Shown: piece by piece, positions 1-43,225 of the stretch | Numbering within the stretch: the first letter of the stretch is position 1 | Layout of the letters: the number at the start of each line of letters is the position of its first letter | From: Bacteroidaceae bacterium | Lineage (GTDB): Bacteria; Bacteroidota; Bacteroidia; Bacteroidales; Bacteroidaceae | NCBI GenBank assembly: GCA_017471185.1 | Contig: JAFUVZ010000075.1 | Coordinates: forward strand, 1-43,816 | Direction: 5' to 3' | Length of the DNA: 43,816 nucleotides | Notes under the pieces: generated by a model | Databases searched by the model: none | Told to the model about the DNA's origin: nothing | Seen by the model: the letters and a program-made list of their open reading frames with translations, nothing else | Made by a program: the position numbers and the translations under genes

Positions 1-60
1 ATATATTTATTATTAATATCTCTTATGTAGGGTACTATGCTGCTGAGATATAAATGTCCG

Positions 61-88
61 AAGTGAGTAAGTGAGTAAGTGAGTAAGT
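61..88. repeat. 8-bp tandem repeat (GTGAGTAA)
   Basis: Three full copies of GTGAGTAA run from 63 to 86 with partial units on both sides. The unit is not a multiple of three and lies outside any gene seen here. A small hairpin (CTGTCA / TGACAG, 103-119) follows. The rest of 1-360 holds phased repeats and a promoter, listed separately; I see no gene in it. Confidence 0.85.
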
Positions 89-139
89 CACGTGTCGGCA
101 TTCTGTCATTCTCTGACAGGGATGTGCCATGAAGCTTGC

Positions 140-193
140 AAGTATCAAACCCAAGGTTTGAAAGTATCAAACAGGCAGTTTGAAAGTATCAAG
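140..193. promoter_or_regulatory. Three 22-bp phased repeats, candidate operator
   Basis: The decamer AAGTATCAAA (last copy AAGTATCAAG) occurs at 140-149, 162-171 and 184-193, exactly 22 bp apart, about two helical turns. The second and third copies are preceded by GTTTGA, so each forms an imperfect dyad (GTTTGA-AAGTA-TCAAAC). The array lies about 100 bp upstream of the promoter at 292-323. Binding by a dimeric regulator on one DNA face is inference; no regulator gene is visible nearby. Confidence 0.45.
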
Positions 194-291
194 CTCATTG
201 GTGCGAAAAAAAATAAGTGAATCTTATGAAACTAATCTGAAATACGGAATGGTGCGTTGGTGCGGTGCTCAGAAAGAAAAAAAGGGATATA

Positions 292-323
292 TTTGCACGA
301 ATGGTAAATAATGAGTAGATTTG
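292..323 (+). promoter_or_regulatory. Bacteroidota-type promoter of the aromatic operon
   Basis: TTTG at 292-295 and TAGATTTG at 316-323 are separated by 20 bases, matching the -33/-7 consensus (TTTG, TAnnTTTG). Transcription would start near 329, about 30 bases before the ATG at 361. A second -7-like box (TATATTTG, 288-295) overlaps but has no good partner. Confidence 0.6.
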
Positions 324-360
324 CAAGCGTTTTGAACGAAAAACAAACAAATCATCAGCA

Positions 361-1134
361 ATGAAGATAAATATATTACAACATGATATTGTTTGGGCTG
401 ACCCTGCGGAAAACCGCAAGCGACTGGAACAGCAGCTGTTTCAACAGCCCAAGGCTGACCTCTATGTGCTTGCTGAAATGTTTTCAACGGGTTTCGCCAC
501 TGAGCCTGAAGGCATCGCTGAAACTGATTGCGCTTCGCTGGAATGGATGAAACTCATGGCGAAAAAACTGGATGCAGCTATCGCAGGCAGCGTGGCTACG
601 GAAGAGGACGGACGGTTCTATAACCGTTTCTATTTCGTGGAGCCCGACGGAAAGGTGACTTTCTACAACAAGCGCCATCTGTTTACCTATGGAGGTGAGC
701 ATAAGCATTTCAGGAGGGGCAATGAGCGTGTGGTGGTGGAGTTCCGTGGCGTGAGGTTCCTGCTACTGGTATGCTACGACCTACGTTTTCCTGTCTGGAG
801 CCGCAACCGAGGCGACTATGACGCTATCCTGTATGTGGCAAGCTGGCCTCTCAGCCGCCTGGATGCCTGGAAGGCATTGCTGAGGGCAAGGGCGATAGAG
901 AACCAATGTTATGTGGGATGTGTCAACCGGGTGGGCAATGACCCGAAATGTGAGTATGCGGGTGGATCTGCCATCATCAGTCCGTATGGGAAGACATTGG
1001 CAGAGGTATCTGATTTCCAAGAGGGTTATGCATCAGCAGAGATTGACATGGATGAGCTGGAAGCGTTCCGCGAGAAGTTCCCAGTACTCAATGATGCAGA
1101 TGGTTTTTCAATGGAGAATGGAGAATTATTCTAA
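361..1134 (+). CDS. Nitrilase-superfamily amidohydrolase, omega-amidase (Nit2/YafV) type
   Basis: A 257-residue C-N hydrolase covering the complete single domain. The Glu-Lys-Cys catalytic triad is visible: E39 in LAEMFSTGF, K104 in NKRHLFTYGGEH and C138 in LLVCYDLRFPVWSR. Length and the short cytosolic form without signal peptide fit the omega-amidase branch, which hydrolyses alpha-ketoglutaramate or alpha-ketosuccinamate to the keto acid and ammonia. It is the first gene after the promoter at 292-323, and iorA follows 30 bp on. Sitting beside an aminotransferase and an arylpyruvate oxidoreductase, it could pull glutamine-dependent transamination of arylpyruvates by removing alpha-ketoglutaramate (inference). 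Another nitrilase-family amidase specificity cannot be ruled out. The ATG at 361 gives the family's usual N-terminus. Confidence 0.88.
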   Translation: MKINILQHDIVWADPAENRKRLEQQLFQQPKADLYVLAEMFSTGFATEPEGIAETDCASLEWMKLMAKKLDAAIAGSVATEEDGRFYNRFYFVEPDGKVTFYNKRHLFTYGGEHKHFRRGNERVVVEFRGVRFLLLVCYDLRFPVWSRNRGDYDAILYVASWPLSRLDAWKALLRARAIENQCYVGCVNRVGNDPKCEYAGGSAIISPYGKTLAEVSDFQEGYASAEIDMDELEAFREKFPVLNDADGFSMENGELF

Positions 1135-1164
1135 CTGATAAGTAAATATGAATTGAAAAGATAT

Positions 1165-2763
1165 ATGGAGAAAAGATTATTGTTAGGTGACGAGGCGATT
1201 GCATTGGGTGCGCTACATGCCGGACTGAGCGGCGTATATGCCTATCCTGGCACACCTTCCACTGAAATCACGGAATTTATACAGGGCTCACCACTGGCTA
1301 AAGAGCGTGGCGTGAGGAGCCGCTGGTGTACAAACGAGAAGACTGCGATGGAAGCCGCATTGGGTATGTCTTACGCTGGTAAGCGTGCCTTGGTGTGCAT
1401 GAAGCATGTGGGCATGAACGTATGCGCTGACGCTTTCGTCAATTCTGCCATTACTGGCGTAAACGGTGGCGTGGTGGTACTGGCGGCTGATGACCCATCG
1501 ATGCATTCTTCTCAGAATGAACAGGATTCTCGTTTCTATGGCAAGTTCGCCATGATTCCTATCCTGGAACCATCAACCCAACAGGAGGCATACGATATGA
1601 TGCCGAAGGCATTCGCCCTATCTGAATCACTGAAGCTGCCAGTGCTGATGCGAATCGTTACGCGCATGGCACATTCAAGGGCTGCAGTAGAGGTGGGCGA
1701 TCCTATGGAGCAAAACGCATTGAACCCTGATAATCAAAGGTCTCACTGGGTGTTGCTGCCAGGCAATGCTCGCAGGCAGTATCTGAGCCTGATCAGCAAG
1801 CAGCCTGAGATAGAGATGTCAGCCGAGAATTCCACTTACAACGAATTGGCCTTAGGAAATCCTGGCGGAATAGGCATCATCGCAGCTGGTACTGGTTACA
1901 ACTATGTAAGGGAAGCAGACGTGCCTGAGAGGTCTGTCCTGAAGATTTCTCAATATCCGCTACCTATTAACAAAATCAAAGAGTTAGCCAACTATTGCAG
2001 TGAGATTTTAGTCGTAGAAGACGGGCAGCCTTTCATCGAGGAATCTGTGAAAGCCATCGTGGGCGCAGGCTATCCAATCACTGGTCGCCTGACAGGTAAG
2101 CTGCCTCGCACAGGGGAGTTAAATCCCGACAATGTGGCTGCAGCTCTGGGTATAGAGAACAAAGCTGCTTTCGAGCCTGCCAAGAATATCGCTGGCAGAC
2201 CTCCTCAGCTCTGCCAAGGATGCGGACACAGAAGCGTTTACCAGGCTCTCAACGAAGTGGCCAAAGAGTTTGATGACCCTCGTATCTTTGGCGACATAGG
2301 CTGCTATACGTTAGGAGCGTTACCTCCATTCAGCGCTATCGACAGTTGCGTGGATATGGGTGCTTCAATCACGATGGCGAAGGGTGCGGCTGACGCTGGT
2401 CAGTTCCCTGCTATCGCCGTGATAGGCGACTCTACCTTCACCCACTCTGGTATGACAGGCTTACTGGATGCAGTAAACGATAACGCCAACATTACAGTCA
2501 TAATATCAGATAATCTTACAACTGCGATGACAGGCGGCCAGGATTCAGCAGGCACACACAAGTTCGAGGCTATCTGCCTGGCACTGGGTGTGGAGCGTGA
2601 GCATCTGCATGTTGTGATTCCTCTGCCTAAGAATATGGAGGAAATCAAGCAAGTCATACGTGACGAAATCAATTATAAAGGAGTTTCAGTGATCATCCCT
2701 CAGCGCGAATGTATGCAGACACTGGCACGTAAGCTCCGTCAACAAAAAGCGAAACAGTCATGA
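1165..2763 (+). CDS. iorA: Indolepyruvate ferredoxin oxidoreductase, alpha subunit
   Basis: IorA uses thiamine diphosphate to decarboxylate arylpyruvates oxidatively to arylacetyl-CoA, or the reverse, with ferredoxin. The N-terminal half carries the pyrimidine-binding domain (YAYPGTPSTEITEF near residue 25), the middle has CQGCGHRSVYQAL, and the ThDP/Mg site lies around GDSTFTHSGMTGLLDAV and ISDNLTTAMTGGQD. I chose ATG 1165 over an in-frame TTG at 1153 because MEKRLLLGDEAIALGA is the normal start. The protein is 532 residues and ends soon after VIIPQREC; the two 4Fe-4S ferredoxin motifs (CxxCxxCxxxC) usual at the C-terminus of archaeal IorA are absent. The TGA overlaps the ATG of iorB by 4 bp, so the subunits are translationally coupled. 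Confidence 0.95.
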   Translation: MEKRLLLGDEAIALGALHAGLSGVYAYPGTPSTEITEFIQGSPLAKERGVRSRWCTNEKTAMEAALGMSYAGKRALVCMKHVGMNVCADAFVNSAITGVNGGVVVLAADDPSMHSSQNEQDSRFYGKFAMIPILEPSTQQEAYDMMPKAFALSESLKLPVLMRIVTRMAHSRAAVEVGDPMEQNALNPDNQRSHWVLLPGNARRQYLSLISKQPEIEMSAENSTYNELALGNPGGIGIIAAGTGYNYVREADVPERSVLKISQYPLPINKIKELANYCSEILVVEDGQPFIEESVKAIVGAGYPITGRLTGKLPRTGELNPDNVAAALGIENKAAFEPAKNIAGRPPQLCQGCGHRSVYQALNEVAKEFDDPRIFGDIGCYTLGALPPFSAIDSCVDMGASITMAKGAADAGQFPAIAVIGDSTFTHSGMTGLLDAVNDNANITVIISDNLTTAMTGGQDSAGTHKFEAICLALGVEREHLHVVIPLPKNMEEIKQVIRDEINYKGVSVIIPQRECMQTLARKLRQQKAKQS

Positions 2764-3335
2764 AGAAAGATATCAAACTATCAGGCGTAGGCGGACAAGG
2801 CATCCTGTCTATCGCTACCGTCATAGGTGAAGCCGCTACGGAAGCGGGACTTCATTTGAAACAGGCTGAGGTTCACGGTATGAGCCAGCGTGGAGGTGAT
2901 GTGCAGAGCGACCTGCGACTCAGTACGGATGAAATTTTCAGCGACCAGATTTCTCTGGGCAAGGCTGACCTGATCATCTCTATGGAACCTATGGAAGCAA
3001 TGCGTTACCTGCCTTACCTGAGCAAGGAGGGAGTGATCGTTACCTCTTCCAAGCCTTTTGTGAACATCCCTAACTATCCTGATGAGGATGCTTTGCTGGC
3101 TGAGCTTGACGCTATGCCTCATGTGGCTCGCCTGGACATCGAGCAACTGGCGAAGGACAACGGCATACCTAAGAGTGCGAACATGATTCTGCTGGGCATG
3201 GCCACACGCTATGTAGAAATCATCTCAGCCGAGCAGATGAAACAAGCCATCCGTATGATTTTCAATAGAAAAGGAGAACAGGTGGTAAACGATAACCTCA
3301 AAGCATTCAACATAGGCTATGAAAATATTCAGTGA
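2760..3335 (+). CDS. iorB: Indolepyruvate ferredoxin oxidoreductase, beta subunit
   Basis: A 191-residue gamma-domain pyruvate/ketoisovalerate oxidoreductase subunit. Family features are the N-terminal LSGVGGQGILSIATVIGEAA segment and EVHGMSQRGGDVQSDLR, which contact CoA and the partner subunit. It forms the catalytic complex with IorA; the start overlaps the iorA stop by 4 bp, and the end overlaps the next gene by 17 bp. Full length, nothing missing. No iron-sulfur motif is present, as expected for beta. Confidence 0.95.
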   Translation: MKKDIKLSGVGGQGILSIATVIGEAATEAGLHLKQAEVHGMSQRGGDVQSDLRLSTDEIFSDQISLGKADLIISMEPMEAMRYLPYLSKEGVIVTSSKPFVNIPNYPDEDALLAELDAMPHVARLDIEQLAKDNGIPKSANMILLGMATRYVEIISAEQMKQAIRMIFNRKGEQVVNDNLKAFNIGYENIQ

Positions 3336-4623
3336 GGAATTGGTGGAAGAGGCCCGTGTGAAGAATCACGTGGCCGACTTATCTACAGCTACCATTGGCG
3401 AGGTGCTGCTAGTGGCGCAATACTTGGAGCAGAAGACAGGCATCCCTTTCATCCGAATGGACCAAGGTTCACCAGGCTTGCCTGCAAACCGCTATGGCAT
3501 CGAAGCTGAGAAAAGGGCTTTGGATGCAGGCGTGGGTTCGCAATATCCGGCAGCAGCCGGCATTCCTGAGCTGAAGGAAGCTGCACATGAGTTCATCAAG
3601 GCGTTCATCAATGTGGAGGTAAGTGCCCGTTCTTGTGTGCCTACCACAGGCTCTGTGGCTGGCTCGTTCGGCTCATTCATCGCCTGTACGCAACGCATTC
3701 CTGGCAAGGACAAGGTATTGTTCATCGACCCGGGATTCCCTATCCAGAAATCACAGTTGCGCATCCTGGGCATCGAGTGGAAGGAGTTTGACATCTACGC
3801 TTATCGTGGCGAGAAACTGCGTGCCAAACTGGAGGAGGAGATGAAGGATGGTGACATCGCTGCCATCGTGTACTCCAACCCGAACAACCCTGCGTGGATC
3901 TGTTTAGAGGACTCAGAGCTTCAGGTTATCGGTGAACTGGCTACGAAATATGACGCTGTGGTGATGGAAGACTTGGCTTATTTCTGCATGGATTATCGCA
4001 AGGATCTGAGCCATCCATACCAGCCACCTTATGTTCCGACAGTAGCCAACTATACTGATAATTATATACTTATGTTATCTTCATCGAAGATATTCAGCTA
4101 TGCAGGACAACGTATGGCACTGGTGGCTATCAGTGACAAGCTGTTCAACCGCCACTACCCTGCCCTGGCTGAACGCTATCACGACTCTGGCGTGTTTGGT
4201 CCTACCATGATCGCTTCCATCCTTTATATGATCACCAGCGGATGTACGGCTACCACGCAATACGGCTACGCTGAGATGCTGCGCCTCTCTTGCGAGGGAA
4301 AGATTAATTTCGTGGAAGACACGCGAGAATACGAACGCCGTGCGGCAAAAATGAAGAAGATATTCACGGATAATGGCTTCCATGTGGTTTACGACCATGA
4401 TGTGACACAGCAAGTGGGCGACGGCTTCTTCTTCACCATCGGCTATAAGGACATGAGCGGTGGCGAACTGCTGAAGGAGTTGCTGTTTTATGGCGTGAGC
4501 TGCATCTCGCTCTCCACTACCGGTAGCTTGCAGAATGGGGTCAGAGGATGCACCAGCCGCATGAGAGACGAACTGTACCCTGTGATGGAGGAAAGAATGA
4601 AACAATTTGATTTAGACCACTAA
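3319..4623 (+). CDS. PLP-dependent aminotransferase, class I/II
   Basis: A 434-residue fold-type I aminotransferase. Visible PLP-site elements: the substrate/phosphate loop near TTGSVAGSFGSF, YSNPNNPAWI (Asn contacting the ring), VVMEDLAYFCMDY (Asp/Tyr) and the Schiff-base lysine K257 in SSSKIFSYAGQRMAL. It overlaps iorB by 17 bp and is followed 13 bp later by a phenylacetate-CoA ligase. The context points to interconversion of aromatic amino acids and arylpyruvates; the nitrilase at 361-1134 would fit glutamine as donor (inference). The exact amino acid specificity cannot be read from the sequence. Full length for the family. Confidence 0.9.
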   Translation: MKIFSEELVEEARVKNHVADLSTATIGEVLLVAQYLEQKTGIPFIRMDQGSPGLPANRYGIEAEKRALDAGVGSQYPAAAGIPELKEAAHEFIKAFINVEVSARSCVPTTGSVAGSFGSFIACTQRIPGKDKVLFIDPGFPIQKSQLRILGIEWKEFDIYAYRGEKLRAKLEEEMKDGDIAAIVYSNPNNPAWICLEDSELQVIGELATKYDAVVMEDLAYFCMDYRKDLSHPYQPPYVPTVANYTDNYILMLSSSKIFSYAGQRMALVAISDKLFNRHYPALAERYHDSGVFGPTMIASILYMITSGCTATTQYGYAEMLRLSCEGKINFVEDTREYERRAAKMKKIFTDNGFHVVYDHDVTQQVGDGFFFTIGYKDMSGGELLKELLFYGVSCISLSTTGSLQNGVRGCTSRMRDELYPVMEERMKQFDLDH

Positions 4624-4636
4624 TAGAAACAAAGTT

Positions 4637-5947
4637 ATGATTTGGAATCCGAACAAAGAGTGTATGAGCCGCGATGAAATGAGCGCGCTCCAAGGTAAGA
4701 GGCTGCATAAGATTGTGGAGTATGTATATCATAATGTGCCGTTCTATCGGAACAAACTGCAGGCGATGGACATCACTCCTGATGATATCCGCACGATTGA
4801 GGATATCACCAAACTCCCATTCACGACCAAGAAGGATCTGCGTGACAACTATCCTTTTGGTCTTCAGGCTGCCCCACCAAGCGAGATTATACGTATCCAC
4901 GCTTCATCAGGCACCACGGGCAACCCTACCATCGTGGGCTATACCCGCAAGGATATCGGGGTTTGGAGCGAGTGTATGGCACGATGCCTCACGGCTTATG
5001 GCGTAGGACGTGATGACATCTTTTCCGTTTCTTATGGTTACGGACTGTTTACAGGTGGCTTAGGCGCCCATAACGGTGTGGAAATGGTGGGAGCGGCAGT
5101 AGTTCCTGCATCAACCGGGAACACGGAGAAACACGCCAGACTGATTCGCGACTTGGGCATCACAGGTATAGCCTGTACGCCTTCATACGCATTGTATTTG
5201 GCTGAAACGATGGACAAAATCGGTATTACCAAAGACCAGATAAAGCTGCGTGTGGGTGCTTTTGGCGCAGAGCCTTGGACGGAGAAGATGCGCGAGGAAA
5301 TTGAGGAACGCTTGGGACTGAAGGGCTTCAACCTCTATGGACTGAGCGAGATCATGGGCCCGAGCGTGAGCTATGAATGCCAGGCCCAGCATGGGTCTCA
5401 CATCAACGAAGACCACTTTTATCCTGAGATCATCAATCCTGTGACATTAGAGCCGCTTCCTATAGGCCAGCAAGGCGAACTGGTGTTCACCACGCTGACA
5501 AAGGAAGGTATGCCCGTATTGAGATATCGCACGCGAGATCTTTGTTCCCTACTGCCTGGTCAGTGCGACTGTGGCAGAACGAGCGTGAGGATGTCGGCTA
5601 TCCACGGACGCAGCGACGATATGCTGATTATCAGAGGCATCAACGTATTCCCTTCCCAGGTTGAGAGCGTAGTGCTGAGCATGAAGGAGTTCGCTCCTCG
5701 CTATATGCTGATTGTAGATCGCATAAACAACCTCGATACCCTGCAGGTTCAGGTAGAACTGAGACAGGAATACTTTACCTCAACCTTCGATACGCCTGCC
5801 GCTATCGACGAACTGGAGAAGCGTTTGGCCAACAAACTGAAGAGTGTGTTGAGCATCGCTGCCAAGGTGAAGCTGAAGGCTCCTAACACCATTGAGCGTA
5901 GCCAGGGTAAGAGTGCGCATGTAATTGACAATAGAAACCTTAAATAA
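4637..5947 (+). CDS. paaK: Phenylacetate-CoA ligase (arylacetate-CoA ligase), copy 1
   Basis: A 436-residue adenylate-forming enzyme linking an arylacetate to CoA with ATP. Signatures are HASSGTTGNPTIVGYT (P-loop-like phosphate motif), FNLYGLSEIMGPSV (A5), and GRSDDMLIIRGINVFPSQVE in the hinge and C-terminal domain. The CDCGRT segment after LLPGQ is the small cysteine loop common in this family. It sits directly before a second copy (2 bp gap). With IorAB it can run arylacetate to arylacetyl-CoA to arylpyruvate, i.e. aromatic amino acid salvage, or the reverse with ATP recovery. Indoleacetate or 4-hydroxyphenylacetate are possible substrates. Confidence 0.93.
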   Translation: MIWNPNKECMSRDEMSALQGKRLHKIVEYVYHNVPFYRNKLQAMDITPDDIRTIEDITKLPFTTKKDLRDNYPFGLQAAPPSEIIRIHASSGTTGNPTIVGYTRKDIGVWSECMARCLTAYGVGRDDIFSVSYGYGLFTGGLGAHNGVEMVGAAVVPASTGNTEKHARLIRDLGITGIACTPSYALYLAETMDKIGITKDQIKLRVGAFGAEPWTEKMREEIEERLGLKGFNLYGLSEIMGPSVSYECQAQHGSHINEDHFYPEIINPVTLEPLPIGQQGELVFTTLTKEGMPVLRYRTRDLCSLLPGQCDCGRTSVRMSAIHGRSDDMLIIRGINVFPSQVESVVLSMKEFAPRYMLIVDRINNLDTLQVQVELRQEYFTSTFDTPAAIDELEKRLANKLKSVLSIAAKVKLKAPNTIERSQGKSAHVIDNRNLK

Positions 5948-5949
5948 AG

Positions 5950-7263
5950 ATGAATTACTCTAACTATTTCAACCCTGAGGTAGAGACCCTCTCTGAAGAA
6001 GGACTGAGGGCTATCCAGCTGGAGCGCTTGCAGAAAACGGTGCGCCATTGTATGAACTCGCCTTTTTACCAGAAGAAATTCCAGGAATTGAGCGTATCTC
6101 CTGAAGACATCAAGACCTTAGATGACATCAGCAAACTGCCCTTTACCTCGAAAGAAGACCTGCGTGAGAACTATCCTTTCGGACTGGCCTGCGTGCCTTT
6201 GAAGGATTGCGTGCGCCTGCACTCATCCAGCGGCACGACTGGCAACCCCACGGTAGTGCTTCACACGCAGAAAGACCTGGATGAATGGGCAAATGCAGTG
6301 GCCCGATGCCTTTGGATGGTGGGAAGCCGTCCAGAGGACGTATTCCAGAATTCTGCCGGATATGGTATGTTTACAGCTGGTTTAGGATTCCAGTATGGTG
6401 CGGAAAAGGTGGGCATGCTCACAGTACCTGCAGCAGCTGGCAATACTATACGCCAGATCAAATTTATCAAAGACTTCGGCACGTCAGTGCTGCATGCCAT
6501 CCCAAGCTATGCCTCCCGTATCTACGAGGTGATGAAGGACGAGGGTGTGGACCCACGTAAGGATACGAAACTGCGAGTCCTCTGCATCGGAGCAGAGCCT
6601 CATAGCGAGGAGCAACGCCAACGTATCGAGCAGAACCTGGGTGTGAAAGCATACAACTCTTATGGCATTTCCGAGATGATGGGACCAGGCGTAGCTTTTG
6701 AATGCCAGGAACAGAATGGTCTGCACATCTGGGAGGATTACTTTATCGTGGAAATCATTGACCCAGTAACATTAAAGCCTGTGCCTGATGGCGAACTGGG
6801 AGAACTGGTCATCACCACCATCAATCGTGAGGCGATGCCTTTACTTCGTTACCGTACTCGTGACCTGACACGCATCTTGCCTGGCGAATGTCCCTGTGGC
6901 AGGCATCACAAACGTCTGGCTCGTCTGCAAGGCAGAAGCGACGATATGATGATTCTGAAGGGTGTGAACATCTTCCCGATACAGATTGAGAAAATTCTAC
7001 TGGGATTCAAGGAACTGAGTACAGATTACCTCATTACCTTAGAGACTGTGGACAGCAACGACATCATGACCATTGAGGTTGAGTTGAACCAGTTGTTTAC
7101 GGATGATTACAACCGTCTGAAGTCATTGGAGCGTGAAATCACCCGCCAGCTGAAGGATGAGATTCTGATTACGCCTCATGTGAAACTGGTACCTAAAGGT
7201 AGCCTGCAGGTTTCTGATGAGAAGAAAGCAGTGAGAGTGAAAGATTTACGAAAACTATTTTAA
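5950..7263 (+). CDS. paaK: Phenylacetate-CoA ligase (arylacetate-CoA ligase), copy 2
   Basis: A 437-residue paralogue of the preceding gene with the same architecture: LHSSSGTTGNPTVVLHT, YNSYGISEMMGPGVAFECQ, CPCGRHHKRLARLQG and GRSDDMMILKGVNIFPIQIE. The two copies align end to end but differ widely across the substrate-binding central region, so this is an old duplication rather than a recent one. Two ligases in one operon suggest divided substrate use (for example phenylacetate versus indoleacetate or 4-hydroxyphenylacetate), which is inference. The ATG follows the previous stop after 2 bp, so translation is probably coupled. Confidence 0.93.
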   Translation: MNYSNYFNPEVETLSEEGLRAIQLERLQKTVRHCMNSPFYQKKFQELSVSPEDIKTLDDISKLPFTSKEDLRENYPFGLACVPLKDCVRLHSSSGTTGNPTVVLHTQKDLDEWANAVARCLWMVGSRPEDVFQNSAGYGMFTAGLGFQYGAEKVGMLTVPAAAGNTIRQIKFIKDFGTSVLHAIPSYASRIYEVMKDEGVDPRKDTKLRVLCIGAEPHSEEQRQRIEQNLGVKAYNSYGISEMMGPGVAFECQEQNGLHIWEDYFIVEIIDPVTLKPVPDGELGELVITTINREAMPLLRYRTRDLTRILPGECPCGRHHKRLARLQGRSDDMMILKGVNIFPIQIEKILLGFKELSTDYLITLETVDSNDIMTIEVELNQLFTDDYNRLKSLEREITRQLKDEILITPHVKLVPKGSLQVSDEKKAVRVKDLRKLF

Positions 7264-7274
7264 ATTTAACTATT

Positions 7275-7703
7275 ATGACAATCAAACAGTTATCCATTTT
7301 CTTAGAGAACAAGTCGGGCACTTTGGTTAAAGTACTCGACCTATTCAAGCAGTCGCAGATTCAGCTCATCGCCATCACAATAGCCGATACTGCGGAATAT
7401 GGAATCTGCCGCATCATCTGCAGCGAGCCTACCCGCGCTTATCAAGAGCTGAAAGAGGCTGGTGTAGCAGTGGCACTGACAGATGTGTTCGCCATCGAGC
7501 TGGACAATAAGCCTGGCTGTGGAGCCGACGCCATCAAGGTGTTCAGCGACAGCGGCATCAGCATCGCTTACCTGTATTCATTTCTCGTGGCTGGCAAGGG
7601 CATCTTGGTGTTCCGCACGGACAACAACGAACAGGCACGCGAGGTGATTATCCTTAACAACCTGAAGTTCGTAACCGAAGAAGAACTGAAGGCTTGGGCA
7701 TAA
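7275..7703 (+). CDS. Tandem ACT-domain protein, likely aromatic amino acid sensor
   Basis: A 142-residue protein made of two ACT domains: residues 1-70 begin KQLSIFLENKSGTLVKVLDLF and residues 70-140 begin VFAIELDNKPGCGADAIKVF. ACT domains bind amino acids at domain interfaces, often regulating enzymes of amino acid metabolism. It has no catalytic domain, lies 11 bp after the second ligase, and closes the operon. Stand-alone ACT proteins often accompany phenylacetate-CoA ligase/IorAB genes in anaerobes, so it may tune these enzymes to aromatic amino acid level (inference). Confidence 0.88.
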   Translation: MTIKQLSIFLENKSGTLVKVLDLFKQSQIQLIAITIADTAEYGICRIICSEPTRAYQELKEAGVAVALTDVFAIELDNKPGCGADAIKVFSDSGISIAYLYSFLVAGKGILVFRTDNNEQAREVIILNNLKFVTEEELKAWA

Positions 7704-7728
7704 GATTTCAAACGAACTAACATTCTAA

Positions 7729-8865
<1,137 letters not shown>

Positions 8866-8876
8866 TTCTAAAACCG

Positions 8877-8916
8877 GTGGGCGATGGCAGGGGAATGACT
8901 GTTTCCAATCGCCCAC
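8877..8916. terminator. Hairpin between the esterase and GH9 genes
   Basis: GTGGGCGAT (8877-8885) pairs with ATCGCCCAC (8908-8916), and an inner GGGGAA/TTTCC pair extends the stem. It is followed by CTTGTTTCTC rather than a clean T-run, so termination may be partial. Confidence 0.5.
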
Positions 8917-8962
8917 AACTTGTTTCTCTACCCTTCAATCAACCATACAAATTCCATCAACT

Positions 8963-11458
8963 ATGAGAAAGCATCTCTTAATATTGGCAGGAGTGCTTAT
9001 TGCTACACTCGGCAAGGCACAGGGTCTGCGTCTGAACGACCTCGATTATTTTGAACGCCAAGGAGTAAACATACTGGTTTTCAGTAATAGTTTTAATGGC
9101 GGATTTAATGATGAAAAGGATTCAGGCATCGAGATTATCCACCACGGAGTACGCACTGTACAAGGTGGGGCCATTCGTCTGAACAACACCCCTGAGCAAT
9201 GGGATCTGGTGCCCACACTGACAGACAGAAAGGTGGATAAAGCCAACAATTCGATTGAGATCTCGCTCAGATATGAAGACTATGATTTCGACAGCAAGGT
9301 GGTTGTAACAGGCAAGGGAAATGCTGTGGAAATCAGCGTGTACCTCGACAAGCCCGTACCTCAGGCAATCGCTCATGAAGCAGGTTTCAACCTGGAATTC
9401 CTACCCTCGCAATATTGGCTAAAGACTTATATCATGGACGGCAGGCTGAACCGTTTTCCACGCTACGCATCCAGTGAAACCATCACTCGCCCGAATGCAG
9501 AGAAAGCCCGTCAGTTCAAAGGATTCAAGACTTATGACGACAGAGGTACTGACCGATTTATCGACCCGCTACCTATAGAAAAAGGGCACTCTATCCTAAT
9601 GGCTATGGATGATCCAGAGCGCATGATGAAAGTGAGCAGCCAGGATGCAGAGCTGTTGCTCTATGACGGACGGATCTTGGCACAAAACGGGTGGTTCGTG
9701 CTTCGCAGTTTGCTGCCAGAAGGAAAGACTGGCAAGGTATTGACGTGGACCGTAGAGCCTCATGCCATTCCTGGCTGGATCCGTGAGCCAAACATCGGCT
9801 TCTCTCAAGTGGGCTATGTGCCAGAACAGCCCAAGGTTGCCGTCATTGAGCTTGACAAGAACGATACCGTCAAGCCAACGGCTTCAATTTATCGCATCCA
9901 AGAAGACGGAAACACAAACGAGATCTTCAAGGGAGAAATCCAACCTTGGGGACATTACTTCAAGTATAATTATGTAAAGTTTGATTTCTCATCCGTGCAT
10001 GAGCCAGGTGTCTATTATATTAAATATGGTGATACCCAAACCAACAATTTCATGATTGACAGCCATGTTTACGATAAGATAACTGATGCCACCACCGATG
10101 TGTGGATTCCTATCCACATGAACCACATGACGGTAAACGAGGGATATCGGATTTGGCACGGAGAGCCTTTTAAGGAGGGGTATCTGCAAGCTCCTCCGAG
10201 TGATCATTTTGACATGCATAGGCAAGGGGAATCAACAGAGACGAAGTATCAGCCTTACGAGCTGATTCCTGGTCTTAACGTGGGTGGTTATTTCGATGCT
10301 GGCGATTTTGACATCGAGACAGGCGCCAATATCGGTGTGGTGGAGAACTTGGTGCGGGCTTGGGAACTCTTTAAATCCCAGCGTGACGAAACCTTCGTAA
10401 ACGAACAGCAACGCTATGTGGACTTACATCGTCCGGATGGTACACCAGACATCCTGCAATACATCGAGCACGGAACATTGAACTTAGTGGCACAAGCCGA
10501 GCAAATAGGACACATGGCATCCACATTGTCGAACTCGGTGCTCGACAACTATCACCACCTGGGTGATGCAGCATCCATTACTGACGGACTCCACTATGAC
10601 AGAAGTCTGAAGCCCTACGAAGTATCAGCCGATGGCAAGTCGAGCGGCACGCCTGACGACATGTGGGCTTTCACCAACCGCAACGTCTGGATGGATTTCA
10701 GAGCAGCGACTATGTTTGCCGCAGCCAGCAGAGCTTTGGAGGGTTATAACGACGACCTCGCTAAGCGTGCCCTCACCCAATCCAAGAGACTGATGGAGGA
10801 AGCCTCTGCCATGATGTCTGAGAATAACCGCTTCAACAGTATGGCGACAAGTCTTCAGCTATATGCCGCCACACGTGAACAATCTTACTTAGACAGCTTT
10901 AAGGAGCAGATTTGGAAGGCATTAGATAACAATGTGGTCAACAATATACAGACTGCCTTAGACGCCATTCCTTATATGGATGATGCTTACAAACAACGTC
11001 TTCGTCAGTATATACAGCGATACCAGGAATATATCTTCACATTCGACAAGGATAATCCTTACGGAGTGCCTATCGGCTTGGGAAACTGGGCAGGAAGTGG
11101 TAATGTGGTTGGTTTTGGCACCACCATCTGTTTCGCTTACCTCTATTATCCTGACATTATCAAACGGGATGATATTTTCCGTGCGGCTAACTACATCTTC
11201 GGATGCCACCCGTATCACAACTATTCCTTAGTGGCAGCAGTGGGAGCAGCAAGACCTAAGGCTGTGTTCTATGGCAACAACAGGGCTGATTTCTCTTTCA
11301 TCCCTGGCAACCTGGCCCCTGGCCTACTATTCCGCCAACCCGACCATTTTGAGAATTATGACGACTGGCCTTTTCTATGGGGACAGAACGAGGGTACCGT
11401 TGGGGGAAATACCCAATATGTCATCTTTGGCTCAGCGTTCAAAAGTCTGATGGAATAA
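8963..11458 (+). CDS. Glycoside hydrolase family 9 with N-terminal Ig-like domain
   Basis: An 831-residue exported glycosidase; residues 1-19 are a signal peptide (MRKHLLILAGVLIATLGKA). Residues about 25-270 are a beta-rich domain I do not recognise. Residues about 275-360 match the Ig-like domain of GH9 enzymes (NIGFSQVGYVPEQPKVAVIE, GVYYIKYGD). The (alpha/alpha)6 catalytic domain follows, with GGYFDAGDFD carrying the catalytic-base Asp pair, GNWAGSGNVVGFG, and near the end WGQNEGTVGGNTQ with the general-acid Glu. Family activities are endoglucanase, exo-beta-glucosidase/cellobiohydrolase and glucosaminidase, so beta-glucan is the likely substrate. It carries no lipobox, no dockerin and no C-terminal sorting domain. 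No SusC/SusD pair is in the window. Confidence 0.88.
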   Translation: MRKHLLILAGVLIATLGKAQGLRLNDLDYFERQGVNILVFSNSFNGGFNDEKDSGIEIIHHGVRTVQGGAIRLNNTPEQWDLVPTLTDRKVDKANNSIEISLRYEDYDFDSKVVVTGKGNAVEISVYLDKPVPQAIAHEAGFNLEFLPSQYWLKTYIMDGRLNRFPRYASSETITRPNAEKARQFKGFKTYDDRGTDRFIDPLPIEKGHSILMAMDDPERMMKVSSQDAELLLYDGRILAQNGWFVLRSLLPEGKTGKVLTWTVEPHAIPGWIREPNIGFSQVGYVPEQPKVAVIELDKNDTVKPTASIYRIQEDGNTNEIFKGEIQPWGHYFKYNYVKFDFSSVHEPGVYYIKYGDTQTNNFMIDSHVYDKITDATTDVWIPIHMNHMTVNEGYRIWHGEPFKEGYLQAPPSDHFDMHRQGESTETKYQPYELIPGLNVGGYFDAGDFDIETGANIGVVENLVRAWELFKSQRDETFVNEQQRYVDLHRPDGTPDILQYIEHGTLNLVAQAEQIGHMASTLSNSVLDNYHHLGDAASITDGLHYDRSLKPYEVSADGKSSGTPDDMWAFTNRNVWMDFRAATMFAAASRALEGYNDDLAKRALTQSKRLMEEASAMMSENNRFNSMATSLQLYAATREQSYLDSFKEQIWKALDNNVVNNIQTALDAIPYMDDAYKQRLRQYIQRYQEYIFTFDKDNPYGVPIGLGNWAGSGNVVGFGTTICFAYLYYPDIIKRDDIFRAANYIFGCHPYHNYSLVAAVGAARPKAVFYGNNRADFSFIPGNLAPGLLFRQPDHFENYDDWPFLWGQNEGTVGGNTQYVIFGSAFKSLME

Positions 11459-14669: not shown

Positions 14670-15746
14670 ATGTTCAACACTTTTGGTAATATTTTCAGAC
14701 TGACTACCTTTGGTGAATCTCATGGCGAAGCCATAGGAGGCGTTGTTGACGGGATGCCTGCAGGCGTTGAGATTGACATGGATTTTATCCAGCAAGAACT
14801 GAACCGCAGGAGGCCTGGTCAGTCGGCTTTAACCACTTCCCGCAAGGAGCCTGATACAGTAGAATTGCTTTCTGGCGTGTTCGATGGAAAATCCACAGGT
14901 ACCCCGATTGGCTTTATCGTGAGGAATACCAACCAACATAGTGACGACTACGACAACCTGCGTGAGGTGTTCCGTCCTTCACATGCCGATTTCACCTACT
15001 ATAATAAGTATGGTATCCGCGACCATCGTGGAGGAGGCCGTTCATCAGCCCGCGAGACCATTGCCCGTGTGGTAGGTGGGTCATTGGCAAAACTGGTATT
15101 GAAACAGTTGGGCATCAGTATTACGGCTTATACCCAGCAAGTTGGAAACATCCGTCTGGAAAAGGGCTATGCTGATCTCGACTTCAGTTTGATTGAACAG
15201 ACCCCTGTGAGGTGTCCTGATGCAGAGAAAGCTAAAGAAATGAAGGCTTTGATCCAAGAGGTAAAGGCAGCTGGCGACACCATCGGAGGAGCCATCAGTT
15301 GTGTGATTCAAGGTTGTCCTGTAGGATTGGGAGAACCTGTTTTCGGCAAGCTTCATGCTGCTTTGGCAAACGCAATGATGAGCATCAACGCTGCCAAAGG
15401 CTTTGAATATGGCGAAGGTTTCAGCGGCTTGAATATGAGAGGCTCTGAGCAAAATGACGTGTTCTACAATAAAAATGGAGCCATCAGTACCCGTACCAAC
15501 CATTCGGGAGGCATACAAGGTGGCATCAGCAACGGACAGGATATTTATTTCCGGGTGGCATTCAAACCTGTAGCGACTCTGCTCCTTGAGCAGCAGACCG
15601 TTGATACAGAGGGGAATGATTCCGTAGTGAAAGCCAAAGGCAGGCACGACCCTTGTGTGTTGCCAAGAGCCGTACCTATCGTAGAGGCGATGACGGCTAT
15701 GACGATTCTCGATTATTATTTACTCAATAAAACTACCAGACTATGA
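14670..15746 (+). CDS. aroC: Chorismate synthase
   Basis: A 358-residue full-length AroC, which converts EPSP to chorismate using reduced FMN, the last common step for aromatic amino acids. Signatures: [17 protein letters not shown] at the N-terminus, [42 protein letters not shown] in the middle (FMN/EPSP contacts), and [18 protein letters not shown] near the end. The stop overlaps the next ATG by 4 bp, so it forms an operon with the M20 peptidase. It feeds the pathway used by the PheC-like enzyme upstream. Confidence 0.97.
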
Positions 15747-25343: not shown

Positions 25344-27512
25344 TTACTCTTCGTCAAGCAGAATCTCCAGGATGGTGCATGCAGCCTTAGCCACAGAGGT
25401 ACCAGGACCGAAGATAGCACTTACGCCAGCCTTGTAGAGGAAGTCGTAGTCCTGAGCAGGAATCACACCACCTGCAATGACGATGATATCCTCGCGACCC
25501 AGCTTCTTTAATTCTTCAATCAGCTGAGGAATCAAGGTCTTGTGACCAGCAGCCAGAGAAGATGCGCCCACTACGTGAACGTCGTTCTCAACAGCCTCAC
25601 GAGCAGCTTCCGCTGGAGTCTGGAACAATGGTCCCATATCCACATCGAAACCACAGTCAGCATAACCAGTTGCAACGACCTTAGCACCACGGTCGTGACC
25701 GTCCTGACCCATCTTTGCCACCATGATACGTGGCTGACGGCCTTCCTTCTTTGCAAACTCCTGAGCCAGGCGGCAAGCCTTCTCGAAGTCGCTGTCATTC
25801 TTAGATTCTGATGAATACACGCCTGAAATAGTTCTAATTACTGCTTTATAACGGCCTACGATAGTCTCGCAAGCGTCTGAAATCTCACCCAAAGTACAAC
25901 GCAAACCTGCTGCCTTAACAGCCAAAGCCAGCAAATTGTTCTTGCTCTTGCGGCCTTCAGCAAAGTCACGTACGCACTCTGTAATTTCAGCCAGAGCTGC
26001 CTGACAAGCAGCCTCATCACGGTTAGCACGCAACTTTTTCAGGTTCTCAACCTGCTCTAAGCGAACAGCAGTGTTGTCAATTTCCAGAATGTCGATCGGT
26101 TCTTCATGATCCAGACGATACTTATTGGTACCAACGATAGTCTGAACGCCTGAGTCAATACGAGCCTGAGTACGGGCAGCTGCCTCTTCGATACGCATCT
26201 TTGGCAGACCAGTTTCGATAGCCTTTGCCATACCGCCCAACTTCTCGATTTCCTGAATATGCTCCCAAGCCTTATGCACTAATTCGTTGGTCAGAGACTC
26301 TACATAGTAAGATCCACCCCATGGGTCAATCTGCTTGCAGACATTGGTCTCTTCCTGAATATAAATCTGGGTATTACGAGCAATACGAGCTGAGAAGTCA
26401 GTAGGCAATGCGATAGCCTCATCCAAAGCGTTGGTGTGCAGTGACTGAGTGTGGCCCAATGCAGCAGCCATAGCCTCGATACAAGTACGGCCTACGTTGT
26501 TGAACGGATCCTGCTCAGTAAGTGACCAACCAGAAGTCTGCGAGTGAGTACGCAATGCCAAAGACTTAGGATTAGTAGCGCCGAAACTCTTCACAATCTT
26601 AGCCCACAGCAGACGACCAGCACGCATCTTGGCAATCTCCATGAAGTGGTTCATACCGATAGCCCAGAAGAATGAAAGACGAGGAGCGAAAGCATCAACA
26701 GGGATACCTGCGTTCACACCAGTACGGAGGTAATCCATACCATCAGCCAAAGTGTAAGCCAACTCAATATCAGCGGTAGCGCCTGCTTCCTGCATGTGGT
26801 AGCCAGAGATAGAAATAGAGTTGAACTTAGGCATGTTTTGTGAAGTATATTCAAAGATATCAGCAATAATCTTCATAGAGAATGCTGGTGGATAGATATA
26901 GGTGTTACGCACCATGAACTCCTTCAAGATATCATTCTGAATAGTTCCAGCCATTTCTTCCAACTTAGCGCCCTGTTCCAGACCTGCGTTGATGTAGAAT
27001 GCCATAATTGGCAATACAGCACCATTCATTGTCATAGACACAGACATCTTATTCAATGGAATACCATTGAACAGCACCTTCATGTTCTCAAGAGAGCAGA
27101 TAGACACACCAGCCTTACCCACATCACCAACTACTCGGGCGTTATCCGGGTCATAACCACGATGGGTAGGAAGGTCAAATGCTACAGACAGACCTTTCTG
27201 ACCAGATGCAAGGTTACGACGATAGAATGCGTTTGACTCCTCAGCAGTTGAGAAACCAGCGTACTGACGGATGGTCCAAGGACGCAGAGGATACATAGCT
27301 GAATACGGGCCACGCAGGAATGGAGGAATACCAGACACAAAGTCCAGATGTTCCATACCCTCCAAGTCCTCCTTGGTGTAAGCGGGCTTTACATGGATAT
27401 GTTCTGGGGTTTCCCAGTCGGCAGTAACAGCGTTAGCTTTCTGCCATGCAGCGCCATCGGTAGCCTGACCAAGGGCTGCATATATATCTAAGTTTTTAAA
27501 ATCTTTTCTCAT
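25344..27512 (-). CDS. mutB: Methylmalonyl-CoA mutase, large (catalytic) subunit
   Basis: A 722-residue adenosylcobalamin-dependent mutase interconverting succinyl-CoA and (R)-methylmalonyl-CoA on the route to or from propionate. The N-terminal TIM barrel has [21 protein letters not shown] and [19 protein letters not shown]. The C-terminal B12 domain carries [16 protein letters not shown] (the DxHxxG base-off motif) and later [17 protein letters not shown]. Full length for the family. Its start lies 6 bp after the mutA stop, and it is terminated at 25293-25319. Confidence 0.97.
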
Positions 27513-41624: not shown

Positions 41625-41713
41625 ACTCGCCAATCTTTAATGTCCCTCTCGCAAAGTTACTGCTTTTATTCAGAAAAACAAACAACCGTGCTATCTTCAC
41701 AAACAGCAAGGCT
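41241..41713. repeat. 473-bp direct repeat, unit A
   Basis: Aligns without gaps to 42753-43225. It spans the end of the DUF3237 gene, nearly all of copy A, its promoter, and the last bases of the truncated umuD. By eye there are about two dozen mismatches, of which about ten cluster around 41508-41540. Confidence 0.9.
41652..41682 (-). promoter_or_regulatory. Promoter of A1S_2505-like copy A
   Basis: On the minus strand TTTG (41679-41682) and TAACTTTG (41652-41659), spacer 19 bases. The same promoter is kept in copy B. Confidence 0.7.
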
Positions 41714-43136: not shown

Positions 43137-43225
43137 ACTTACCTATCTTTAATGTCACTCTCGCAAAGTTACTGCTTTTATTCAGAAAAACAAACAACCG
43201 TGCTATTTTCACAGACGGCACGGCT
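42753..43225. repeat. 473-bp direct repeat, unit B
   Basis: Gap-free match to 41241-41713. It carries copy B with its promoter and, at its left end, AAGTAGTAAGG, which equals the last codons of the DUF3237 gene. Its left flank is the hsdS remnant and its right flank is non-coding. Confidence 0.9.
43164..43194 (-). promoter_or_regulatory. Promoter of A1S_2505-like copy B
   Basis: On the minus strand TTTG (43191-43194) and TAACTTTG (43164-43171), spacer 19 bases, identical to copy A. Confidence 0.7.

Follow-up and report, generated by a model that had tools for sequence, protein, structure and literature searches.

Gene Content and Boundaries of the Locus

The stretch of DNA analyzed here (the window) is 43,816 nucleotides long and comes from a Bacteroidaceae bacterium (assembly GCA_017471185.1, contig JAFUVZ010000075.1). 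On its + strand, between positions 361 and 7703, seven genes lie head to tail: a nitrilase that is a candidate omega-amidase, the alpha and beta subunits of an indolepyruvate:ferredoxin oxidoreductase (IOR; IorA and IorB), an aminotransferase, two PaaK-like ligases and a pair of ACT domains (Table 1). Their possible joint role in salvaging arylacetates, such as phenylacetate and indoleacetate, is the subject of this report.

No gap within the run exceeds 18 bases, or 30 with IorA beginning at the ATG at 1165, which by eye is likelier than 1153; two pairs of genes overlap. A Bacteroides-type promoter match precedes the nitrilase, and a pattern scan of the window found no further + strand match anywhere in 361-7703. 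In the whole window the pattern matched nine times, against 0.80 expected from shuffles (about elevenfold). In the closest relative of the locus, L076 (Bacteroidaceae, from goat omasum), gene order is identical across all seven genes and the run likewise stops at the ACT gene, followed by a gene on the opposite strand; the four proteins that come after the ACT pair in the window have no match in the L076 locus. Because of the promoter at 292-323 and the end of the L076 run at the ACT gene, the conserved unit is taken to extend from nitrilase to ACT pair. Scans of positions 1-9000 for sigma-70 promoters (15 matches vs. 9.5 expected, four on the + strand inside the run) and for terminators (4 terminator-like structures vs. 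6.6 expected, some inside the run) were not used as evidence. An earlier sequence-only reading of this DNA had named the seven genes and proposed that they form an operon; gene positions, family models and the promoter bear this out.

Table 1. Features of the nitrilase-to-ACT run (window positions).
Feature	Position	Strand	Basis or remark
Promoter, Bacteroides-type, TTTG-N20-TAGATTTG	292-323	+	Pattern match; 37 bases 5' of nitrilase start codon
Nitrilase-superfamily omega-amidase candidate (NIT), 257 amino acids	361-1134	+	NF007757, PF00795, catalytic residues
IorA, indolepyruvate:ferredoxin oxidoreductase alpha subunit, 536 amino acids, without C-terminal part of model	1153-2763	+	TIGR03336
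IorB, beta subunit	2760-3335	+	NF005324; overlaps IorA stop and aminotransferase start
Fold-type I aminotransferase (AT), 3g0t family, Q49-G50 class	3319-4623	+	
PaaK-type arylacetate-CoA ligase 1, AMP-forming	4637-5947	+	TIGR02155, PF14535
PaaK-type arylacetate-CoA ligase 2	5950-7263	+	TIGR02155, PF14535
ACT domain pair, probable amino-acid sensor, end of conserved run	7275-7703	+	PF19571

Conservation of the Nitrilase-IorA Linkage

Within a family sample of 201 genomes, a nitrilase at E 1e-60 or better was found in 159 (150 of them listed and used) and IorA in 141; 118 genomes had both among the matches listed. The nitrilase ends less than 400 bp upstream of IorA in 50 of these 118, representing 13 genera, and in four others IorA comes first and the nitrilase follows 3.7-8.3 kb later, on the same strand. 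Arylacetate genes adjoin the nitrilase in 22 of 60 family nitrilase regions (50 taken as every third listed row, and 10 chosen). Twelve of the best 80 named loci, part of a longer list, are also linked, including L076, Candidatus Phocaeicola gallistercoris, two Paraprevotella and a Rikenellaceae genome.

A wider sample of 148 Bacteroidales genomes (the order sample) was compared by eye for neighbor order. Among the matches listed, the nitrilase is directly upstream of IorA in six: the window, G064, G008, G016, G025 and G132. Four of 20 aminotransferase-centered regions from this sample hold the complete series nitrilase-IorA-IorB-aminotransferase-PaaK-ACT, and G008 has the set in two places. 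Linkage of nitrilase and IorA is thus solidly established as common in gut and rumen Bacteroidales, beyond what chance would give. The sequence-only reading had suggested checking whether the neighborhood is conserved, and had allowed that the adjacency might be an accident of one strain: the 50 linked genomes among 118 and the matching run in L076 confirm conservation, and the spread over 13 genera excludes the accident.

The Nitrilase

The window nitrilase scores 277.7 bits on NF007757, a PRK10438 amidohydrolase model that we take to be the YafV model, above the curated cut-off of 249, and it also matches PF00795. Residues E39, K104, E113 and C138, which presumably fill the catalytic Glu-Lys-Glu-Cys roles, are invariant in 154 of 154 aligned nitrilases, the 40 operon-linked ones included. 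A divergent operon-linked nitrilase in locus L142 falls below the cut-off (228.9 bits).

Neighbors of its relatives elsewhere are also informative. A YbdL-type aminotransferase lies within 3 kb of the nitrilase in 22 of the best 80 named loci, in Flavobacteriaceae, Hymenobacteraceae and Pseudomonadota among others (judged by tree labels); a representative scores 610.9 bits on NF006569, the methionine aminotransferase model. This arrangement matches the published partnership of glutamine transaminase and omega-amidase. Eight enterobacterial loci among the same 80 are near neither YbdL-type, acyltransferase-like nor arylacetate genes, and a small acyltransferase-like gene (by eye) near the nitrilase in 16 unlinked loci is uninformative. 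Family model, intact catalytic residues and the YbdL-type neighbors of its relatives together make omega-amidase activity likely for the window protein, and give substance to the earlier impression that it has the look of such an enzyme.

IorAB, Ligases and ACT Pair

IorA is a clear homologue in a short form: it scores 527.1 bits on TIGR03336, under the cut-off of 650.9, and matches model positions 2-539 of 595. The C-terminal part that is absent is presumably where the ferredoxin domain lies. Relatives in the family are similar, with open frames mostly of 530-580 amino acids. By eye, IorA retains CxGCG and DIGC motifs, so that one proximal cluster may remain. IorB passes its cut-off on NF005324 (284.9 vs. 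222 bits), as does the ACT pair on PF19571 (ACT_8; 230.8 vs. 23.5 bits). Ligases 1 and 2 match TIGR02155 over its full length with 560.2 and 482.8 bits, under the cut-off of 646.3; both are clear PaaK-like homologues, and strict equivalog status is not claimed for them.

Two Classes of Aminotransferase

The aminotransferase fits Aminotran_1_2, and none of the 25 best NCBIfam models listed for it is matched above cut-off. Its closest solved relative is 3g0t, a Porphyromonas gingivalis protein described as a putative aspartate aminotransferase. The AlphaFold model of the window protein has a pLDDT of 93.2.

Family aminotransferases fall into two separate classes by identity to that of the window, 45-55% and 74-82%, with seven columns (27, 48, 49, 113, 118, 142 and 306) that distinguish them near-completely, reading GDQVGIT in the window class and REMMAVS in the other; in one comparison, which drew the line between classes at 62% identity, a single row under that line has the window letters. 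Column 113 is taken to align with the position that reads the side chain in type I enzymes. With Q in column 49, the window class has a QG-x-P motif near the N-terminus (Q49-G50-S-P in the window). Five of five compared chains, from four enzymes (YbdL, Rv0858c, human KAT1 and mosquito KAT/GTK), have QGFPD at this place; the equivalent of QG is LG and AG in the compared aromatic and alanine-glyoxylate enzymes. The motif is a resemblance to the KAT/YbdL enzymes, not membership among them, and it is no proof of glutamine use, because Rv0858c is named a succinyldiaminopimelate aminotransferase.

The Q49 class tends to occur with the nitrilase. Among 61 family loci with IorA, nitrilase-linked ones have 15 Q49-like and 5 other aminotransferases and unlinked ones 4 and 30 (Fisher p 4e-6, leaving out seven of the 61 that have no aminotransferase nearby). 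Over 107 aminotransferase rows, with some genomes counted twice, 28 of 33 in the Q49 class and 10 of 74 in the other have a nitrilase no more than 9.5 kb away. This count overstates the independent evidence because many of the loci were fetched for holding a nitrilase, so that the sample favors such loci, and because the classes part at one tree branch, itself of weak support (45). A tree-based pair test of nitrilase link against class found five independent pairs and was not significant. The tie between Q49 class and nitrilase is a lead, not proof.

Variants and History of the Linkage

Most linked loci begin with the nitrilase; in L171 and L175, the two fetched of the four genomes in which it follows IorA, it comes right after the ACT gene. 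Loci L082 and L095 have nitrilase-aminotransferase-PaaK-ACT with no IorAB in the stretch, L087 is linked and lacks the aminotransferase, and L142 has a divergent nitrilase and aminotransferase in another gene order. The window's pair of ligases is a minority arrangement, shared by 9 of 40 linked loci (by eye). In L095 (positions 1-10000), genes resembling those of leucine biosynthesis (by eye) precede the run.

Three order genomes with the nitrilase 5-8 kb from IorA (G007, G118, G060) were removed as incidental, unrelated genes lying between the two and partly on the other strand; this lowered the linked count from 43 to 40. Mapping the 40 linked rows onto the nitrilase tree takes 13 changes, of which well-supported branches force at least four, and a single clade of linked nitrilases is rejected (p-AU 1.5e-6, quick tree). 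Linkage must therefore have been gained or lost repeatedly, gain and loss not being distinguishable on this tree.

Source Genome and Other Features of the Window

The source genome is about 80% complete, and at that completeness it yielded no prephenate dehydratase (PF00800). At 14670-15746 the window carries a gene that by eye resembles chorismate synthase.

The window nitrilase is closer to those of other genera than to those of its assigned genus. No conclusion about misbinning or transfer is drawn, since a mutase-like protein (by eye) on the same contig, at 25344-27512, shows the same pattern (88-89% in other genera and at best 87% within the genus) and the GC content of the window agrees with that of six other stretches of the source genome.

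The strict Bacteroides-type pattern, whose matches span window positions 292-43194, may be a handy promoter finder for this genome. An identical 31-base promoter-like sequence occurs twice on the - strand, 1.5 kb apart (41652-41682 and 43164-43194), perhaps from a duplicated upstream region. Short direct repeats at 60-200, 5' of the operon promoter, consist by eye of gtgagtaa units and repeated tttgaaagtatcaa stretches.

A Possible Glutamine-Driven Route From Arylacetates

Assuming the seven proteins act together, one route would be as follows. The two ligases would convert arylacetate (phenylacetate, indoleacetate and similar compounds) to arylacetyl-CoA, spending ATP; IorAB would carboxylate this reductively, with ferredoxin, to arylpyruvate; the aminotransferase would aminate the arylpyruvate, at least partly from glutamine; and the nitrilase would cleave the resulting alpha-ketoglutaramate to 2-oxoglutarate and ammonia, making the last step irreversible. 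Sensing of the amino acid product is the probable role of the ACT pair. We lean, modestly, toward this interpretation: an operon for salvage of arylacetates into aromatic amino acids, driven by a ketoglutaramate ratchet.

Its parts are not equally firm. The anabolic direction is fairly likely: it is favored because AMP-forming ligases favor acyl-CoA formation, and the balance tips further toward synthesis where an omega-amidase is present, because that enzyme is useful only with glutamine (or asparagine) as donor, in which case amination is one-way. The ligase beside the Bacteroides IOR has been assayed as an arylacetate-CoA ligase, and anabolic use of that IOR was suggested (PMC13285125). Glutamine as the amino donor stands at about even. 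A more specific version can be offered only tentatively: that the Q49/V113 class switched its donor to glutamine, and that this is tied to an omega-amidase recruited more than once, yielding a glutamine-driven one-way arylacetate route to aromatic amino acids. On this version, the presence of the omega-amidase would allow the direction of IOR to be read from the genome.

Several observations, beyond the sampling and tree results already given for the two classes, weigh against the salvage reading. The aminotransferase is far from membership of the YbdL-type family (31.9 bits on NF006569, cut-off 420), and none of 11 matches to that model in the source genome passes. After 3g0t its fold neighbors are aspartate, prephenate, glutamine and methionine aminotransferases, all within about 3 Z units; prediction of the donor from fold was dropped, since neighbors of many specificities are too close. 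It is core to the IorAB run even where no nitrilase is linked (present in 34 of 40 such IorA regions, some of the other six reaching a contig end soon after IorA), hence the nitrilase is optional. In other Bacteroidales the same aminotransferase family also adjoins a distant 2-oxoacid oxidoreductase pair, in L053, L058, L069, L070 and L071 (22-25% identity to IorA), perhaps a 2-oxoglutarate enzyme; such a neighbor would suit an aminotransferase working with glutamate and 2-oxoglutarate. L058 has a nitrilase at this place as well. A link to auxotrophy was rejected as support, as presence of prephenate dehydratase does not track IorA: PF00800 is found in 175 of 201 family genomes, and of the 26 without it 20 are listed, 14 of these 20 having IorA against 141 of 201 overall.

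Alternative Explanations

Possibilities other than a salvage route include operation of the same genes in the opposite direction. Amino groups of phenylalanine or tryptophan would pass to 2-oxoglutarate, IorAB would oxidize the arylpyruvate to arylacetyl-CoA, a reversed ligase or a thioesterase would free the arylacetate, and the nitrilase would merely clear ketoglutaramate formed in side reactions. In its favor, the Bacteroides thetaiotaomicron IOR is reported to take part in conversion of phenylalanine to phenylacetate (as cited in PMC13285125), a point that also tells against synthesis; phenylacetate is produced by B. fragilis (PMC11304471); and the aminotransferase has relatives beside other 2-oxoacid oxidoreductases. 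The AMP-forming ligases and the ACT sensor, however, fit a synthetic role, and an omega-amidase would have no job in the degradative direction, yet its linkage is common and has changed repeatedly. Quantifiable indoleacetate was moreover obtained from 0 of 66 Bacteroidota strains in one study (PMC13290082). Catabolism as the function of the operon seems unlikely.

Another possibility is that the nitrilase acts on a different amide: phenylacetamide or indole-3-acetamide, feeding the ligases, or alpha-ketosuccinamate, with asparagine as the amino donor. Omega-amidases act on the keto acids of glutamine and asparagine alike, according to a reference title. The nitrilase superfamily hydrolyses many amides, and a substrate-supplying step would fit in an operon with ligases. 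This nitrilase, however, passes the NF007757 cut-off; many of the non-Bacteroidales loci among the best 80 named adjoin YbdL-type aminotransferases and none adjoins arylacetate genes; and in L057 and L058 the nitrilase stands beside the aminotransferase, on the same strand, in the absence of this IorAB or ligases. We regard a different amide as rather improbable.

It is very improbable that the nitrilase is a mere passenger that profits from a convenient promoter and takes care of ketoglutaramate repair in general. In favor of this, it lies elsewhere in 64 of the 118 family genomes (8 far off on the same contig and 56 on another, some perhaps through contig breaks), which also counts against the salvage reading; its superfamily is widespread, with a match in 141 of 148 order genomes, although the weak matches are probably to other members of it; and the spacing in three order genomes is incidental. 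Against it, order and strand are the same in all 50 adjacent pairs, linkage has been gained or lost repeatedly and at differing positions in the run, and it correlates with aminotransferase class.

Relation to Known Systems

Allison is said to have reported in 1965 that rumen bacteria make phenylalanine from phenylacetic acid; this synthesis, known as physiology, is the outcome that the operon would explain. To our knowledge, no omega-amidase takes part in arylacetate assimilation by methanogens. That pathway resembles the present one in that IOR, in reverse, is proposed to serve aromatic amino acid synthesis (mentioned in PMC13285125). In Bacteroides, IOR with an AMP-forming arylacetate-CoA ligase is likewise paired as here, with an anabolic direction suggested, but the available part of that account mentions neither the nitrilase nor the aminotransferase class tied to it (PMC13285125).

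The other half of the proposal also has a counterpart. An omega-amidase ratchet has been described for methionine salvage (PMC6302742, PMC9309667), and YafV was predicted to be an omega-amidase in that process (PMC3223725). The pairing of KAT/YbdL with NIT2/YafV, like the window, places an omega-amidase-like nitrilase beside an aminotransferase, and irreversible amination has been proposed for it (PMC6302742, PMC9309667). In the window, in contrast, the nitrilase is joined by an aminotransferase of the 3g0t family, not KAT/YbdL, and would act after amination of an arylpyruvate that reductive carboxylation supplies. Already known, then, are the IOR-ligase route, its possible reverse use and the methionine salvage ratchet. 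Among the papers listed in searches of the open-access literature, none was seen to join an omega-amidase to IorAB and PaaK, and what appears to be new here is the union of ratchet and IOR-ligase route in one widely conserved operon.

Gut and rumen Bacteroidales may use IOR either to make phenylacetate and indoleacetate, compounds that reach the host, or to consume them. If the proposed route is correct, an omega-amidase in the operon would mark a genome as one that consumes them, and the ketoglutaramate ratchet would extend from methionine salvage to the assimilation of arylacetates.

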